Shown here: positions 10,168 to 58,582 of the stretch, piece after piece
Position numbering within the stretch: position 1 is the stretch's first letter
Layout: each line of letters opens with the position of its first letter
DNA from: Dickeya chrysanthemi NCPPB 402
GTDB lineage: Bacteria; Pseudomonadota; Gammaproteobacteria; Enterobacterales; Enterobacteriaceae
Reading direction: 5' to 3'
NCBI RefSeq assembly: GCF_000406105.1
Contig: NZ_CM001974.1
Location: forward strand, 3,793,028-3,857,027
DNA: 64,000 nt
Notes under the pieces: model-generated
What the model saw: the letters and a program-made list of their open reading frames with translations, nothing else
Told to the model about the DNA's origin: nothing
Databases searched by the model: none
Made by a program: the position numbers and the translations under genes

Positions 10168-10509
10168 TATACCCAAAATAATTCGAGTTGCAGGACAACA
10201 CGCTCGCGTGTTGAACAACGCAAAGCGTTGGCCCGTCAGGACAAGACTCATTATGAGTCTTGTCACGCGGCAAGCGAGTGACAAATTCGTCGGGAACGAA
10301 TTTGACCAGCCAACGGCTGGCCTCCGGTGAGAGACAGGATGTCTCTCATTTCATCCCGATGAGCTTACTCAGGTAAGTGATTCGGGTGAGCGACAAATCT
10401 GCCGGGAGCAGATTTGAACGCAGCTTGCTGCGGCCCTGAAAGGGCGAGGCCCAAGGAGGGGCCGAGTCACGCAGCCAACACACCTGCAACTTGAAGTATG
10501 ACGGGTATA
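10168..10509 (+). repeat. ERIC element expanded to 342 bp by a chain of short hairpins
   Basis: Both ERIC ends are intact (TATACCCAAAATAATTCGAG at the left, GTATGACGGGTATA at the right) and the central GATGAGCTTACTCAGGTAAG palindrome is present. Between these lie extra hairpins absent from normal copies: 10196-10213, 10216-10230, 10241-10263, 10282-10304, 10306-10320, 10328-10348 on the left, and 10394-10416, 10419-10432, 10433-10445, 10448-10463 on the right. Stems are 5-11 bp. The loop CGGGA occurs twice. Confidence 0.9.
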
Positions 10510-17195: not shown

Positions 17196-18299
17196 ATGCG
17201 TCGCCTGGTTGCTGTTTTCCCGTTGTTGCTGGCGCTGTCCGCCTGCAGCAATAAATCCACTGAGCCCACCGGGGCTGAAATTATCGGTACACCTGCCACC
17301 AACGCCCCATCCGGCGGCTTTTTGTTGTCCCCCGCCCATGCCGGCGGCATGCTGACCAACGGCGATTTCGCCAACAGCCCGGAAGTTAACCGCTTCGTGG
17401 ATAAGATGGTGCAGCAGCATGGTTTCGAGCGCCAACAACTGCACGACGTGCTGGCGCAGGCGCAGCGGTTGGACTGGGTCATCAGGCTGATGGATAAACA
17501 AGCCCCCGCGCCATCAACCGCCACGCCTTCCAACATTCCCAACGGTGCCTGGCTACGTTACCGCAAGCAATTCATCACCCCGGATAACCTGCAAAACGGC
17601 GTCGCGTTCTGGAACCAGTATCAGGATGCACTGGAACGCGCCCAGCAGGTCTACGGTGTGCCGCCGGAGATCATCGTCGGTATTATCGGGGTGGAAACCC
17701 GCTGGGGCCGGGTGATGGGCAAAACCCGCATACTGGATGCGCTGGCTACGCTGGCCTTCGCCTACCCGCGCCGCGCCGAGTACTTCCAAAGCGAGCTGGA
17801 GTACTTTCTGCTGATGGCGCGGGAAGACGGCTTTGACCCGCTGTCGCTGCGTGGTTCGTTTGCCGGTGCGATGGGTTACGGCCAGTTTATGCCATCGGCG
17901 TTCAAGAAATACGCGGTGGATTTCAACGGCGACGGCATTCCCAACCTATGGGACCCGGTAGACGCCATCGGCAGTGTCGCCAACTACTTCAAATCAAACG
18001 GCTGGCAGCCAGACGGACAGGTCGCGGTGACCGCCAGCGGCCAGACTTTCGCACTGGAAACCGGCTTCAAAACCCGCTATTCCTTGTCAACGCTGGCAGC
18101 GGCCGGGCTACGCCCGACCGCTTCATTAGGCGGCGCGCAGGAAGCCAGCCTGCTGCGTCTCGACATGGGCAGCTACTACCAGTTCTGGTATGGCCTGCCG
18201 AACTTCTACGCCATCACCCGTTACAACCACAGCGTGCACTACGCTATGGCGGTATGGCAGTTAGGGGACGAAGTCAGAAAAGCGAAAATGGGGTATTAA
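17196..18299 (+). CDS. mltB: Membrane-bound lytic murein transglycosylase B-like lipoprotein
   Basis: A 367-aa lipoprotein: MRRLVAVFPLLLALSAC puts the lipid-bearing Cys at 17. The catalytic Glu167 is in GVETRWGRVMG, followed by GAMGYGQFMPSAFKKYAVDFNG, the MltB/Slt35 core. It cleaves the MurNAc-GlcNAc bond of peptidoglycan to form 1,6-anhydro ends. The frame is open from 17109, but the start at 17196 is required for the signal sequence; only a weak ribosome binding site is seen. The symbol is by family; the gene is not linked to the srl genes that neighbour mltB in E. coli, so it could be a paralogue. Confidence 0.85.
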   Translation: MRRLVAVFPLLLALSACSNKSTEPTGAEIIGTPATNAPSGGFLLSPAHAGGMLTNGDFANSPEVNRFVDKMVQQHGFERQQLHDVLAQAQRLDWVIRLMDKQAPAPSTATPSNIPNGAWLRYRKQFITPDNLQNGVAFWNQYQDALERAQQVYGVPPEIIVGIIGVETRWGRVMGKTRILDALATLAFAYPRRAEYFQSELEYFLLMAREDGFDPLSLRGSFAGAMGYGQFMPSAFKKYAVDFNGDGIPNLWDPVDAIGSVANYFKSNGWQPDGQVAVTASGQTFALETGFKTRYSLSTLAAAGLRPTASLGGAQEASLLRLDMGSYYQFWYGLPNFYAITRYNHSVHYAMAVWQLGDEVRKAKMGY

Positions 18300-18699
18300 A
18301 CCGAGTAAAAATTGCTAACAAACGCATTAGTACATGCGGATGACGGTTTTCCCGGCGTCAAAAACTGTGCTGAGGTGGACGACTTCGCCGGGTGAGCCGC
18401 ATGGACGCGGCGAAAGCCCGTGCCGCGTCTGACAAAAACGCGAAAAGCGTTTTTGAACAGCGTTTACGCTGGCCCGCAGGGCGAGCCACAGCATGTGGCG
18501 AGTAATCGCGTCACGGGCGGCCCGAACAGCGAAGGCGAACGCCGAAGGGACCGCGAAGCGGCACACCATTTTGCAATGCAAAATGGAACAGCGCTTGCGC
18601 TGGCCCGCAAGGGTGAACCCGTCAGGGTTCATAGTTTAGCCCTCAAGCCAGTGGTCAAGGAGAGGCGGCGCTGAGTAACCGTGTTGTCAGTCAAGCCAT
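18300..18699. other. 400-bp non-coding region dominated by a hairpin array
   Basis: Lies between the transglycosylase gene and the IS110 transposase. It contains the hairpin chain at 18404-18631. The unseen 3' end of the IS lies somewhere after about 18640. Open frames here on both strands follow the palindromes and have no domain, so none is called. Confidence 0.65.
18404..18631. repeat. Array of about ten short independent hairpins
   Basis: Consecutive perfect inverted repeats with short spacers: 18404-18429, 18433-18455 (CAAAAACGC/GCGTTTTTG), 18458-18471, 18472-18482, 18485-18499 (GCCACA/TGTGGC), 18514-18524, 18534-18543, 18551-18561, 18566-18586 (CCATTTTGC/GCAAAATGG), 18589-18602 and 18614-18631 (TGAACCC/GGGTTCA). 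Stems are 4-9 bp and loops mostly 2-5 bases. The hairpins differ in sequence, so this is not a simple tandem repeat. The style equals that inside the ERIC at 10168-10509. Confidence 0.88.
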
Positions 18700-19689
18700 T
18701 CAACTGGCTACCACCCCATAATTTCTGTCATATTGTTGCTGCGTATGCAGCACGCCATAACACAGATGAACCAGCTTCCTCATCGCCGCCCCTATCGCCA
18801 GCATCTTTGCCTTGCCTTTTAGCAACAGTCGCTCGTATTGCGCCTTCACATGATGATTGTGACTGATGGCTGCTATCGCTCCCATATACAGCTTTGCCCG
18901 CATCGCGGATGGCCCGATTTTCGACAACCTGGCTCTGCCACGTACCGAGGCTCCTGAGCGACGCTCTACCGGGATGACCCCCAGATAAGCCGCCACCTGT
19001 TCTGCGCTCCTGAAGCAATTGCCCCGAATGGTAGCCAACATATTCCATCCGATTTGGTCTCCAACTCCATCAATCGACTTCAGAAGTTTCAGGTCGTTCT
19101 TTAGTCCGGGATGGTTGTCTATGTGGTCCGCTATCAGTCTTTCTATACGCTCCAGCTCATCCTTTACGTGCTGCACCATCGATTCCAGTGATGCCATCAC
19201 TTCTTCTGTTGTCAGTGTCGACCTTAACGTGCTCAGCCGGTTTTCCAGGCGCTGTTTATCACCCAGCAGACTATCCCTGTGCTGCAGTAATGCCCTGAGT
19301 TTCCTTATTTCTGGAGCGGGGGACGTCCAGCACTCCGGCTGTCTCAGACAGCCATAACAGGCCAGCGCACAGGCATCCACTTTATCTGTCTTCGTAAGTA
19401 TCCCCATTCCTTTGGCAAACTCTCGCAAACGGTGGGGATTTATCACCGATACAGCAATACCTGACTGATGAAGACCATAAGCGAGGTGTTCGTGATAAAT
19501 CCCCGTTGCTTCCATGACGATATGGGCCTGACTCGGGTCACATTTTTGTCGCGTTAGCCATTCAGCCAGCGCCTCAACCGCGTTGGGGCCATTGGGTAAC
19601 GTTTTCGTCTTCCGTTTACCTTTAATGCCATCAATTAACAGACATACGTCGACGACACGCTTACTGATATCAATACCTACGTAATACAT
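18700..19689 (-). CDS. IS110-family transposase (DEDD recombinase)
   Basis: A 329-aa protein of normal IS110 length. The RuvC-like half shows GIDISKRVVDVCLL with the first Asp, VMEATGIYHEHLAYGL with Glu, and LTKTDKVDACALA with the last Asp pair. The C-terminal Transposase_20 half shows QVAAYLGVIPVERRSGASVRG and LSKIGPSAMRAKLYMGA with the serine of the composite active site. IS110 enzymes catalyse guide-RNA-directed insertion using a structured RNA encoded next to the gene. The frame looks intact. A long non-coding leader precedes the start (19690-19990), as in the IS110 rather than the IS1111 group. Confidence 0.93.
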   Translation of the reverse strand: MYYVGIDISKRVVDVCLLIDGIKGKRKTKTLPNGPNAVEALAEWLTRQKCDPSQAHIVMEATGIYHEHLAYGLHQSGIAVSVINPHRLREFAKGMGILTKTDKVDACALACYGCLRQPECWTSPAPEIRKLRALLQHRDSLLGDKQRLENRLSTLRSTLTTEEVMASLESMVQHVKDELERIERLIADHIDNHPGLKNDLKLLKSIDGVGDQIGWNMLATIRGNCFRSAEQVAAYLGVIPVERRSGASVRGRARLSKIGPSAMRAKLYMGAIAAISHNHHVKAQYERLLLKGKAKMLAIGAAMRKLVHLCYGVLHTQQQYDRNYGVVAS

Positions 19690-19739
19690 AATGATGTCCC
19701 CCTTTCACTGAAGCCATCACGCCCGTTTCGCTTGTACGT

Positions 19740-19900
19740 TCAGAGTCAGTGCTCTAGGTAACCGTTCAATGTTAATGCTGGCGTGAAAGGTGAAACAGAG
19801 GGCTTAAACTCAACCACAAGGTTTACAGCCCTGACTCTCCTTCGAAGCTCACTCTGTTTCATGTCGTGATAGCTAATCACGACATGAGCAAGATACAAGC
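19740..19900 (-). ncRNA. Candidate IS110 bridge RNA
   Basis: The leader of the transposase can fold into two strong elements. A perfect 11-bp hairpin with a 5-base loop lies at 19860-19886 (CATGTCGTGAT / ATCACGACATG). Next to it, GAAACAGAG (19792-19800) pairs with CTCTGTTTC (19852-19860) and encloses GGGCT/AGCCC (19800-19804 with 19827-19831) and AACC/GGTT. A stem with a large internal loop fits the known plan of bridge RNAs in IS110 elements. Exact ends and the target and donor guides are not determined. Confidence 0.5.
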
Positions 19901-20025
19901 CTCTCCTTGTCGTGCGTGCGATGAAATAGCAAAGAAACGGCTCTGTTCATTCCGCACGAAACCATTCACCGCCCAGGCAGACGTCACCGTTCACGAGACA
20001 ACATAGCGGTTTGGGCTGCCAGCCC

Positions 20026-40805: not shown

Positions 40806-40902
40806 TATACCCGTCATACTTCACGTTGCAGGTGCGTTGGTTTTATTACCCGGCCCATCCCTGGGCCTTGCGCCTTCTGGGGCGCAGCTCGAATGAGTTA
40901 TC
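40806..40902 (-). repeat. Degenerate ERIC element with two extra hairpins
   Basis: The left end TATACCCGTCATACTTCACG and right end CTCGAATGAGTTAT are ERIC-like in reverse orientation. The middle is replaced by GGCCC/GGGCC (40852-40867) and GCGCC/GGCGC (40870-40885) hairpins. It is a shorter relative of the expanded copy at 10168. Confidence 0.7.
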
Positions 40903-40917
40903 GCCTGCCGGTCAGCG

Positions 40918-41340
40918 TCAGGAATACAGGCTGTTGGCCGCTTGTTCGCTTTCCTCACGGGTGTATCCCCCGTAAGTCATGGCGGAAATAAACGCGGTGC
41001 GGTCGGTCTTGGGGTACACTTTTTCATCCAGTAACACCCGGCCGACCTCTTCCGGCGTCAGTTGTGGGTACTGCTCATGAATCCCCCCCACCACATCCCA
41101 GGCGGCGTAGCCGAGCACGCGGATAATAGCCGCGACCTGCAGCGGTGAGGTGTCATCCTGGTAGGTTGAATGAATCACATCGGCTATCAGTTTTGAGGTC
41201 AGCACGTTGACTTTGGACACATCGCTGTAACGGCTACCCAGAGATTGAACAATATGATTGATGGCGTCTTCCGGTCCATAGCCTCTTTCACGAATTCGGG
41301 TTAATACCGAAACCATCTTGTCTCTCAGATCGATAAACAT
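40918..41340 (-). CDS. Protein of unknown function (140 aa)
   Basis: A soluble, mainly helical 140-aa protein with AAGGAA as ribosome binding site. I do not recognise a family. Repeated helix-forming segments are DKMVSVLTRIRERGYGPEDAINHIVQSLGS, ADVIHSTYQDDTSPLQVAAIIRVLGYAAWDVVGGIHEQY and RTAFISAMTYGGYTREESEQAANSLYS. No signal peptide or membrane segment. It lies alone between an ERIC remnant and the nifJ promoter region, on the opposite strand to nifJ. Confidence 0.7.
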   Translation of the reverse strand: MFIDLRDKMVSVLTRIRERGYGPEDAINHIVQSLGSRYSDVSKVNVLTSKLIADVIHSTYQDDTSPLQVAAIIRVLGYAAWDVVGGIHEQYPQLTPEEVGRVLLDEKVYPKTDRTAFISAMTYGGYTREESEQAANSLYS

Positions 41341-47725: not shown

Positions 47726-49189
47726 ATGATTGACATCATCGGTGTTTTAGAGCCTGGCGCAGTCACACCGACTGGCGAGCCCATTTCGTTGCAAAAACAG
47801 CTGATAGGGCGTTTGCAGCAAGGGATCCTATCTGGAAGATTGCCGGCAGGCTCACTGCTGCCCTCCTCCCGAGCACTTGCCGAGGAACTTGGCGTATCAC
47901 GCAACACCGTGGTGATTGCGTACGATCATCTGGCTGCGGAAGGGTATGTGCTGGCCAACCGACAGGGCACTCGCGTGACCTCGTTAGCTAGCTATACAAG
48001 CCATGCTCAGGAACCCGATGCGGTGTGGCAACCCGTGTCGCTGGCGCGACGGCTGTCGCCATTTGTAGCAATCCATCCGCAATCGCCACCCGAAGCGCTA
48101 TTGTTGCCAGGGATGCCGGCCCTTGATCTTTTCCCGCTGGCGGCATGGCGCCGTTCGCTCCTGCGCGCAACGGGGCGCGCATTACCCCAAATGCTCGGGT
48201 ATGGCCCACCCGCTGGCGAGCCAGCATTGCGCGATGCGATCGCCGCACATCTGCACATCACGCGCGGCGTGCGCTGTGACGGCTCACAGGTCGTTATCAC
48301 CGAAGGGACTCAGGAAGCCCTGAATCTCTGCGTCACCTTGCTAACGAACCCCGGCGATATCGCATGGGTCGAGGACCCTGGTTATCGTGGTGCGAAGGCG
48401 GCATTTTATGCCGGCGATCTGCGAACCATACCGGTTCGCGTAGACCAGGACGGCCTGGCGGTACCGCCGGAAACATGGGGTAACTATCCCCCGACGCTCA
48501 TCTACACATCGCCTGCTCATCAGTATCCCACTGGTGCCGTGCTATCAATTGCACGGCGGCTGGAATTGATAGCACAGGCAAAACGCGTGGGCGCGTGGTT
48601 AATTGAGGACGACTACGACAGCGAATTCCGCCACGCTGGCGATCCCATCGCGAGCATGCACGGACTGGTGCCCGATGCACCGGTTCTCTACATCGGTTCG
48701 TTCAGTAAGACGATGTTTCCGGCATTGCGGATCGGCTTCGTGGTGCTTCCACGCAGCGTGATAAGTCAGGCTCAATCCACATTGCATGAACTGCTGCGTG
48801 GCGGCCATCGCTTCGAACAGCTGGCGCTTGCGGACTTCATCAACAGCGGCGAATTCGGACGACACCTCGGTCGTATGCGACGCCTCTACCGTGAGCGCCA
48901 GCATGTGCTGCGTGAGGCGCTGACGAAGCATTTCGCACAGGCGCAGATTCTCGGAGGCCACTCAGGGATGCATCTGACCTTAAGGTTGCCGCCACAAGTT
49001 GATGATCGTACGGTCGTCACAAGCGCGCAGCCGCATGGAATCGCCGCACATGCATTGTCGACGTTCACCATCGCACCGACAGCAAAAGAAAACGGGCTCG
49101 TCATCGGCTACGGCAATACCCACGCAGAAGCCATCCCTGATGCTGTGAGTACGCTTGCACGGCTGGTGCAGAAAGCCGCACTTTCCTAA
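47726..49189 (+). CDS. MocR family regulator (GntR HTH + aminotransferase domain)
   Basis: A 487-aa fusion. The GntR winged helix is at about residues 20-85 (LPSSRALAEELGVSRNTVVIAYDHL), and a fold-type I aminotransferase domain at 120-480 binds PLP through Lys328 in SFSKTMFPALRIGFVV, with Asp296 in IEDDYDSEF. MocR proteins such as PdxR or GabR use PLP or amino-acid adducts as signals. The ligand here is unknown. The divergent GNAT gene is the most probable target. Confidence 0.9.
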   Translation: MIDIIGVLEPGAVTPTGEPISLQKQLIGRLQQGILSGRLPAGSLLPSSRALAEELGVSRNTVVIAYDHLAAEGYVLANRQGTRVTSLASYTSHAQEPDAVWQPVSLARRLSPFVAIHPQSPPEALLLPGMPALDLFPLAAWRRSLLRATGRALPQMLGYGPPAGEPALRDAIAAHLHITRGVRCDGSQVVITEGTQEALNLCVTLLTNPGDIAWVEDPGYRGAKAAFYAGDLRTIPVRVDQDGLAVPPETWGNYPPTLIYTSPAHQYPTGAVLSIARRLELIAQAKRVGAWLIEDDYDSEFRHAGDPIASMHGLVPDAPVLYIGSFSKTMFPALRIGFVVLPRSVISQAQSTLHELLRGGHRFEQLALADFINSGEFGRHLGRMRRLYRERQHVLREALTKHFAQAQILGGHSGMHLTLRLPPQVDDRTVVTSAQPHGIAAHALSTFTIAPTAKENGLVIGYGNTHAEAIPDAVSTLARLVQKAALS

Positions 49190-58130: not shown

Positions 58131-58582
58131 ATGACATCCCGTTTCTTACTGCAACGTCAGAGGTTTGCCGAACCTTCCGGCACCGCCAAAGGCGCAAATC
58201 CCCTGACCATGAAATACTGTTTCGGCAACCATTCTTAGCGTTTTAACGACGAAACACCAGCATGATGAGCGGCATTTTTACTCTCCAGACCGGGAGACTG
58301 ATTAGGTTATATACCCAAAATAATTCGAGTTGCAGGAAGGCGGCAAGAGAGAGAATCCCGATGAGCTTACTCAGGTAAGTGATTCGGGTGAACGAACGCA
58401 GCCAACACACCTGCAACTTGAAGTATGACGGGTATAAAGAAAAAATGTCAGGATGTCGGCGTCGCGTTGTTGCACGCGGCAGGTGCTAAATAATTCAAGT
58501 TGCAGGGTAACATCAAAAGGCACATGAAAAGAAACGGGAGAGCATCGCCCTCCCGTGTTCGGCACTCGCTACCGTTTCCGGT
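58131..58582. other. 452-bp region with ERIC element
   Basis: Upstream of the AI-2E permease gene and downstream of the peptide transporter operon. It contains the ERIC at 58310-58436 and a fragment of ERIC left end (TAAATAATTCAAGTTGCAGG near 58488-58507). Confidence 0.7.
58310..58436 (+). repeat. ERIC element, full length (127 bp)
   Basis: Same sequence layout as 895-1021, with intact terminal TATACCC/GGGTATA and a central palindrome. The two copies share the GATGAGCTTACTCAGGTAAG centre. Confidence 0.95.

Follow-up and report, generated by a model that had tools for sequence, protein, structure and literature searches.

Hairpin-bearing elements that enter a short fixed target without duplicating it are represented by the REP/RAYT and IS200/IS605-type elements. 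Foldable insertions at fixed places inside ERIC repeats were reportedly described in 1997, by Cromie, Collins and Leach and by Sharp. The rtT RNA, or RttR, of the Escherichia coli tyrT operon (RF00391) is treated in Rfam as one RNA made of a tRNA-end context and the module analysed in this work. The REP/RAYT definition given in PMC3733652 comprises a GTAG or CGTC tag, a single short palindrome and a RAYT gene. Rickettsia palindromic elements are described in PMC2229807 as short palindromic inserts that can lie in frame in genes, and the left-end sequence of the RU-2/YPAL repeat of Yersinia is printed in Table 1b of PMC2759123. The 160-bp typing repeat of Yersinia enterocolitica, as given in PMC7828411, contains the module by eye. 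In mainly open-access literature, no paper was found that describes the family or joins rtT, the ERIC interruptions, AaHKsRNA22 (RF02902) and the typing repeat.

Here we analysed a hairpin-rich locus behind a lytic transglycosylase gene of Dickeya chrysanthemi NCPPB 402, within a 64-kb stretch of DNA (the window). Its recurring module has three hairpins and no GTAG or CGTC tag in the model consensus, in contrast to the single tagged palindrome of REP, and no PF01797 (Y1 transposase) match is found in the genome; these are differences from REP/RAYT and IS200/IS605-type elements. It resembles the IS200/IS605 type in the absence of target duplication (in two coding genes) and in its short target (35 chosen sites, with CA exceptions). 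In-frame insertion is shared with the Rickettsia elements as described there; features of the module are its preference for GA^A as a target and the constancy of its linkers. Relative to the ERIC interruptions, modules were observed here at three ERIC sites and also in non-ERIC hosts, in other orders and classes. The host repeat of the locus begins with TTCAGACTGCTGACAAAC, 18 bases identical to the printed RU-2 left end (18/18 in the own-genome copy L003, a 15-base match in the copy of the congeneric genome G003, degenerate in the window copy), and the inverted right end is also common. Within RU-2 as given in that source (body of ~168 bp), no other exact match of more than 10 bases was found in L003, and the host repeat is longer and carries modules; because the left end is common and the body shows no likeness, the host is named 'YPAL-like' only. 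Taken as a family, the module is best read as a widespread variety of small palindromic mobile element. Part of the family is already known separately, namely the rtT RNA and, reportedly, the ERIC insertions.

Anatomy of the locus and of its module

An earlier note had described positions 18404-18631 as a chain of about ten unrelated short hairpins. A greedy count of perfect stems (at least 5 bp, loops of at most 6 bases) gives 7 stems with 98 paired bases, compared with means of 1.95 stems and 21.3 paired bases (maximum 6 and 70) in 500 dinucleotide shuffles. None of the 1388 control windows of 228 bp, drawn from four 20-kb segments of this genome, reaches either value, and RNA folding yields -111.2 kcal/mol, where shuffled sequences average -86.7 (z -5.3; 0/200 shuffles as low). 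The exceptional hairpin richness is borne out by all three comparisons, with 0/500 shuffles of the same composition, the check that the note itself had named, reaching the observed stem number. The count is seven instead of ten under this rule, and the hairpins are related: the 27-base unit GAACAGCGTTTACGCTGGCCCGCAGGG reappears 131 bp downstream with 89% identity, and BLAST against the own genome (4.70 Mb, 21 contigs) finds copies of the region at 91, 88, 84 and 85% identity together with several partial ones. The element also runs past the noted interval at both ends. Its resemblance to the interior of the ERIC at 10168 is real, the same module being present in both, and in a scan of the 64 kb (2551 windows of 230 bp) only the ERIC windows at 10168 equal or exceed its score. 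A simple tandem repeat was ruled out by the finding of two related yet diverged modules, and 48151-48480, with a fairly high hairpin count, reads as coding and was dropped. No Rfam family matched anywhere in the window at gathering scores.

The region reads as a nested composite of a YPAL-like repeat, two modules (B and C) and an IS110-family insertion (Table 1). The borders of the IS110-family element were taken from the uninterrupted hairpin of G003; candidate IS1111-type sub-terminal repeats in it were discarded, the left member being part of the host repeat in G003. An insert-free host repeat measures ~370 bp (own copy L003, with the inverted right end taken as border). The G003 orthologue, which lacks module C, reads GCGGCATAG at that site. 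A plasmid search with the region itself gave no match.

Table 1. Features of the hairpin-rich locus and of related sites in the window.
Feature	Coordinates	Strand	Basis
ERIC repeat with three modules (10194-10265, 10280-10351, 10392-10469)	10168..10509	+	R1 58.7, 37.3, 87.4 bits
Lytic transglycosylase gene (SLT_2 domain), upstream	17196..18299	+	PF13406, E 2.6e-90
YPAL-like palindromic repeat, left part (host of both modules)	18304..18675	+	Own-genome copies and G003 orthologue; starts near 18304, degenerate ..TGCTAACAAACG end
Module B, CAAAA..GAGTA, 72 bp with three hairpins, apparently inserted between GA and A	18433..18504	+	R1 match 18431-18505, 86.8 bits (copy belongs to the R1 seed); absent in G003 orthologue
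Module C, divergent 68-bp member at GCGGCA^TAG	18564..18631	+	R1 match 18564-18634, 44.5 bits, E 1.3e-9; non-seed
IS110-family element in the host repeat's terminal hairpin CAAGGAGAGG..CCTCTCCTTG	18676..19899	-	PF01548 and PF02371; transposase ORF 18700-19689
YPAL-like repeat, right part after the IS	19900..20000	+	CCTCTCCTTGTCGTGCG.. continues as in uninterrupted G003 copy; outer end approximate
Decayed module in ERIC remnant	40846..40919	-	R1 29.5 bits, E 8.6e-6; flank ends ..CTGCAACGTGAAGTATGACGGGTATA

The module follows the layout GA^CAA[stem 1]TTG-AAC-[stem 2]-GGCCC..GGG-GAG-[stem 3]-GAGTA^A, with a length of ~65-80 bp in most matches. Hairpin 1 is framed by CAA..TTG and frequently has a CGGGA loop; the linker AAC, hairpin 2 and a GGCCC..GGG mini-hairpin come next. 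Hairpin 3 frequently bears an A(N)GGAT loop and is closed at its base by a tandem G.A pair or, equivalently, by Watson-Crick pairing; the module ends with GAGTA. Covariance model R1 was built from 12 typed modules of this genome and a second model, R2, from 119 matches. In alignments fitted to R1, and leaning to that extent towards the modelled structure, 25 of 26 pairs changed on both sides among 115 distinct rows, with a score of 0.449 against 0.119 in shuffles and at most 0.067 for slid partners, and with 90.4% paired cells against 70.9% in shuffles; the named-genome set alone (86 distinct rows) gave 22/26 pairs and 0.415. These alignments show stems that appear to be maintained by paired changes. 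At the base of hairpin 3, GA..GA is seen in 60/86 and 58/106 distinct rows, a complementary combination (GA..TC or AA..TT) in 18/86 and 35/106, and other letters in 8 and 13; the tandem GA/GA or complementary base, 78/86 and 93/106 rows in total, speaks for the top strand. G.U pairs exceed A.C mismatches weakly (44 vs 31 and 41 vs 28).

Copies, host repeats and target sites

Across the whole genome, R1 found at least 122 matches at E<=1 and at least 114 at E<0.001 among 150 scored of 2631 first-look candidates, recovering all three modules of the ERIC at 10168 as well as B and C of the locus. A linker-based pattern gave 96 raw matches (overlaps counted) versus 2 for its reversed form. According to a flank rule on 119 of the 122 matches, 80 fall at three fixed ERIC sites (site 1, 25; site 2, 23; site 3, 32) and 4 at the YPAL-like site, with 35 unclassified. 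Many of the 35 are worn ERIC remnants by eye, and one of them, at own position 4103224, is a YPAL-like copy missed by the rule. Each ERIC or YPAL-like site holds mostly its own module subfamily. The ERIC at 10168 retains the TATACCC..GGGTATA ends and the core, and uninterrupted 127-bp copies occur elsewhere in the genome: 41 full-length ones were found among 42 matches, with 40/201 candidates scored. A module-free 127-bp ERIC copy also lies in the window at 58310-58436. In five ERIC remnants (own 318336, 1290866, 1517140, 2987981 and 4169333) the site-1 and site-3 modules appear to be fused and the ERIC core lost, as if modules had recombined.

Among relatives, R1 at E<=1e-4 matched 21/38 genomes, with 3 to 107 matches within the genus. 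R2 at E<=1e-6 matched 108/274 genomes drawn evenly from the class (92/222 genera) and 71/299 genomes across the phylum, 50 of them outside the class and most of these from one family; since 16-17 candidates per genome were scored in the class and phylum surveys, copy numbers are lower bounds. In E. coli, an ERIC query with the site-3 module in it finds, in 670/5426 genomes, a stretch that spans 80% or more of its length. Judged by these matches, the module family reaches across Gammaproteobacteria and outside this class. When named genomes were scanned with a pattern, at least 119 stretches were returned, and R1 gave 88 matches at E<=0.01 on 80 of these loci. Strong matches come from Pectobacterium, Serratia, Klebsiella, Citrobacter, Sodalis, Brenneria and Salmonella diarizonae, and further ones from Marinobacter (73.8 bits), Aestuariibacter (83.1), Bowmanella (54.6) and Thiohalobacter (39.8). 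In GC-rich genomes, several hits of the pattern lacked an R1 match and were put down to chance.

The hosts of the module are diverse. Duplicated tRNA 3' ends reading GGTTCGA^ATCC or nearly so carry it in Aestuariibacter (L270), in a MAG (L313) and twice in the own genome (L104 and L013), behind an intact tRNA-Arg or tRNA-Lys gene. At L304 and L337 it lies within a GTCAT(T/C)CC..GGA^ATCCA palindrome, which we take to resemble the dRS3 type. In one genome (G285, L416-L426) with at least 17 matches, all 11 that were fetched lie in one CCCTCTCCCT..GGGGTGAGGG palindrome, another host repeat. Modules lie near tmRNA genes at L401 and L406, in two genomes of the class-wide set, and in the apparent D-loop of a tRNA-Ser-like sequence at L450 (G165).

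Two coding genes contain the module. In Marinobacter persicus, 72 bp interrupt an IS1182 transposase ORF; excising them yields ..ADTGFANE.., gap-free versus 5/5 homologues (picked from 120 listed) with 83-87% identity across the junction. A Methylococcus gene carries an in-frame module of net 25 codons in G175 (L439) and net 24 codons in G164 (L414); the insert is common to three Methylococcus proteins (P0121, P0122, P0123) and missing in the Thioalkalivibrio homologue P0125. This gene is small and uncharacterised, the module sequence differs between G175 and G164, and a Pfam scan of the G175 protein gave no match. These comparisons show apparent insertion without target duplication or loss in both genes.

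At 35 target sites, hand-picked for GA on the left with CA-left sites omitted, the right side is A in 32, T/C in 28, C in 20 and C in 26, only the first A being modelled. Many sites in several repeat families suggest a preference for GA^A(T/C)CC without target duplication. Exceptions to GA are module C, at CA^T, and several class-wide copies after CA. A module consensus found no match in phages and 170 plasmid records, 165 of them Salmonella; in one of three plasmids inspected (Salmonella) the module lies between ybtP and ybtA.

The tRNA-linked copies connect the module with a described RNA. Within the tyrT-tyrV stretch of K-12, R1 has four matches (29.7, 28.9, 26.4 and 21.6 bits; E 1.9e-6 to 2.1e-4 in 16 kb). 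Two of these were viewed in full, and both occupy a GGTTCGA^ATCC site where the 3' end of tRNA-Tyr is duplicated. Conversely, RF00391 scores 104.4 and 100.4 bits (cut-off 45) on the own tRNA-Lys copies L013 and L104. The rtT RNA contains the module. The window copies sit in YPAL-like and ERIC repeats, without the tRNA context that belongs to the Rfam family, and RF00391 gives no match to them at E<=1. AaHKsRNA22 extends over whole modules, with 25.1, 29.4 and 22.3 bits in the window and 33.3-37.9 bits at L281, L295 and L037, all under its gathering score of 39.8. Tandem tRNA 3'-end duplications with the module, similar to the Y. enterocolitica typing repeat, are seen at L013 (own 3286136) and at K-12 tyrT (L386); they give rise to length differences downstream of tRNA genes.

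Presence and absence at orthologous sites

The site after the transglycosylase gene was compared in eight congeneric genomes. The repeat has the orientation of the window copy in G003 (L178) alone, where B, C and the IS are missing; the empty sites there read GCCGCTCCGGGAGAGCGTCACGGGC and GCGGCA-TAGTTTAGCC. A module-free copy in opposite orientation occupies the site in G002, G005, G006 and G008, and no repeat was found within the 760 bases viewed after the gene in G001, G004 and G007.

At own 4103224, where module B is present, the same repeat in G005, G006 and G008 has CCGG-GAG-CGCG instead, and a more diverged G002 copy is likewise empty. The G005 and G008 repeats are nearly identical to the own one, and identity over the two halves of the locus is 92-95% there. 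Ten positions right of the junction the own copy keeps its repeat-specific base (CACGAGC), where CACGGGC or AATGGGC stands in the four other YPAL-like copies of the own genome that hold B. Gain of the module in this lineage would be the simplest reading, given four empty relatives. The change at the YPAL-like site is GAG to A..AC rather than a pure insertion.

Other sites differ in either direction. At L006 the own genome is empty and G004 filled; at L002 the own genome has B and C and G004 has B only. At L008 the own genome is empty and G003 filled (pair L008/L194), and ~60 bases left of the module differ as well, which suggests recombination between repeats. An 800-kb part of G008 offered counterparts for eight of 87 module clusters: in clusters 64, 65, 67, 68 and 72 the entire ERIC or remnant is missing together with its modules, cluster 75 is probably alike, cluster 73 is masked by N in G008, and cluster 77 is the 4103224 case.

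The earlier note had suggested a class of elements, mobile or copied, whose hairpin cargo varies, and had named orthologous sites as the place to look. The aligned loci there show the module present or missing as a unit, in support of this suggestion. The variable cargo holds in that stems vary with compensation between fixed linkers; the region as a whole is apparently a nested composite and not one element. The seamless insertions in coding genes speak against the further idea of a scar left by a hairpin-making enzyme.

Movement of the module and rival readings

We give a probability of roughly 0.55 to the reading of the locus as a nested mobile composite, in which the module is a non-autonomous hairpin-bearing element moved as a folded top strand of single-stranded DNA by an enzyme from elsewhere. 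The YPAL-like repeat after the transglycosylase gene would have been entered by two modules, and its terminal hairpin by an IS110-family element; each module would be recognised as the folded top strand, and the enzyme moving it would be supplied from elsewhere. A resident Y1 transposase as the mover is unsupported, with 0 PF01797 matches in the own genome, though this genome has the most modules of the 38 compared; Y1_Tnp occurs in 17/38 genomes, by eye unrelated to module number. No autonomous relative of the module was met in the course of the other searches. A wider proposal, which we hold tentatively and a little short of even odds, is that of a distinct mobile-element class: a ~70-nt strand with three hairpins and fixed linkers, without terminal inverted repeats or target duplication, would enter GA^AYCC as a folded single strand with the help of a separate enzyme. 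Such an element would be present in much of Gammaproteobacteria and in further classes of this phylum. The rtT RNA, the ERIC interruptions and perhaps AaHKsRNA22 would be its members, and it may carry twin CsrA-type hairpins into new transcripts.

The site-bound subfamilies count against mobility, since a few founding insertions and copying of the host repeats would explain most copies; the copies at CA in place of GA also weigh against the preferred reading. It is conceivable, if somewhat unlikely, that the module itself is immobile now and that, once a few old insertions had occurred, its copies multiplied only along with the host repeats and through recombination, or template switching, between these. 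The conversion-like pair L008/L194, the whole ERIC-plus-module units missing in G008 at the five clusters named above and the replaced GAG at the YPAL-like site fit this as well, but the common site rule and the clean junctions in many unrelated hosts, coding genes included, do not, nor does the repeat-specific base kept beside the 4103224 junction. Chance palindromes in a GC-rich intergenic stretch deserve hardly any weight: the coding-like 48151-48480 also scores fairly high, but the control windows and shuffles exclude this origin, and family members and covariation contradict it.

Two further readings turn on RNA. The CsrA consensus contains GGA, and the GGA loops of hairpins 1 and 3 would, once transcribed, serve as a CsrA/RsmA binding site or decoy, a function for which the module might be kept; we regard this as an unlikely explanation of the family. 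Of 115 distinct modules, 51 have GGA in loop 1, 49 in loop 3, 44 in both and 1 in loop 2, above within-loop letter shuffles (means 22.9 for loop 1 and 16.4 for loop 3; maxima 35 and 26). A module regex run on 29 class-wide loci missed 8 and gave one spurious placement. In 41 modules defined by a regex (69 class-wide and 12 named loci), GGA occurs in loop 1 of 32, in the hairpin-3 region of 37 and in both of 32; rttR, which contains the module, is an annotated small RNA in E. coli K-12. On the other side, window modules B and C have no GGA in either loop, the G.U excess over A.C is slight, and GGA also lies at insertion points and may serve insertion instead. Gene orientation, too, shows no clear bias: the upstream gene is co-directional in 20/35 scored cases of 87 clusters (20/31 and 15/22 under stricter limits), the strictest rule scoring 17/87. 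Retro-insertion, with module RNA copied into DNA, for example from tRNA-linked transcripts such as rtT, seems improbable; numerous copies adjoin tRNA genes, within duplicated 3' ends, and two are near tmRNA genes, but most classified copies in this genome are in ERIC, and the G.U excess expected of RNA is weak.

For the preferred reading, a module moved as single-stranded DNA, the seamless and also in-frame insertion, together with the absence of an obvious hairpin transposase in a module-rich genome, points to an unknown enzyme. The two covariance models and the target rule make searches for this enzyme and for an RNA role directly testable. If the reading is true, one small element would account for the tyrT/rtT repeats, the ERIC interruptions, the tandem repeats behind tRNA genes and unannotated hairpin arrays.
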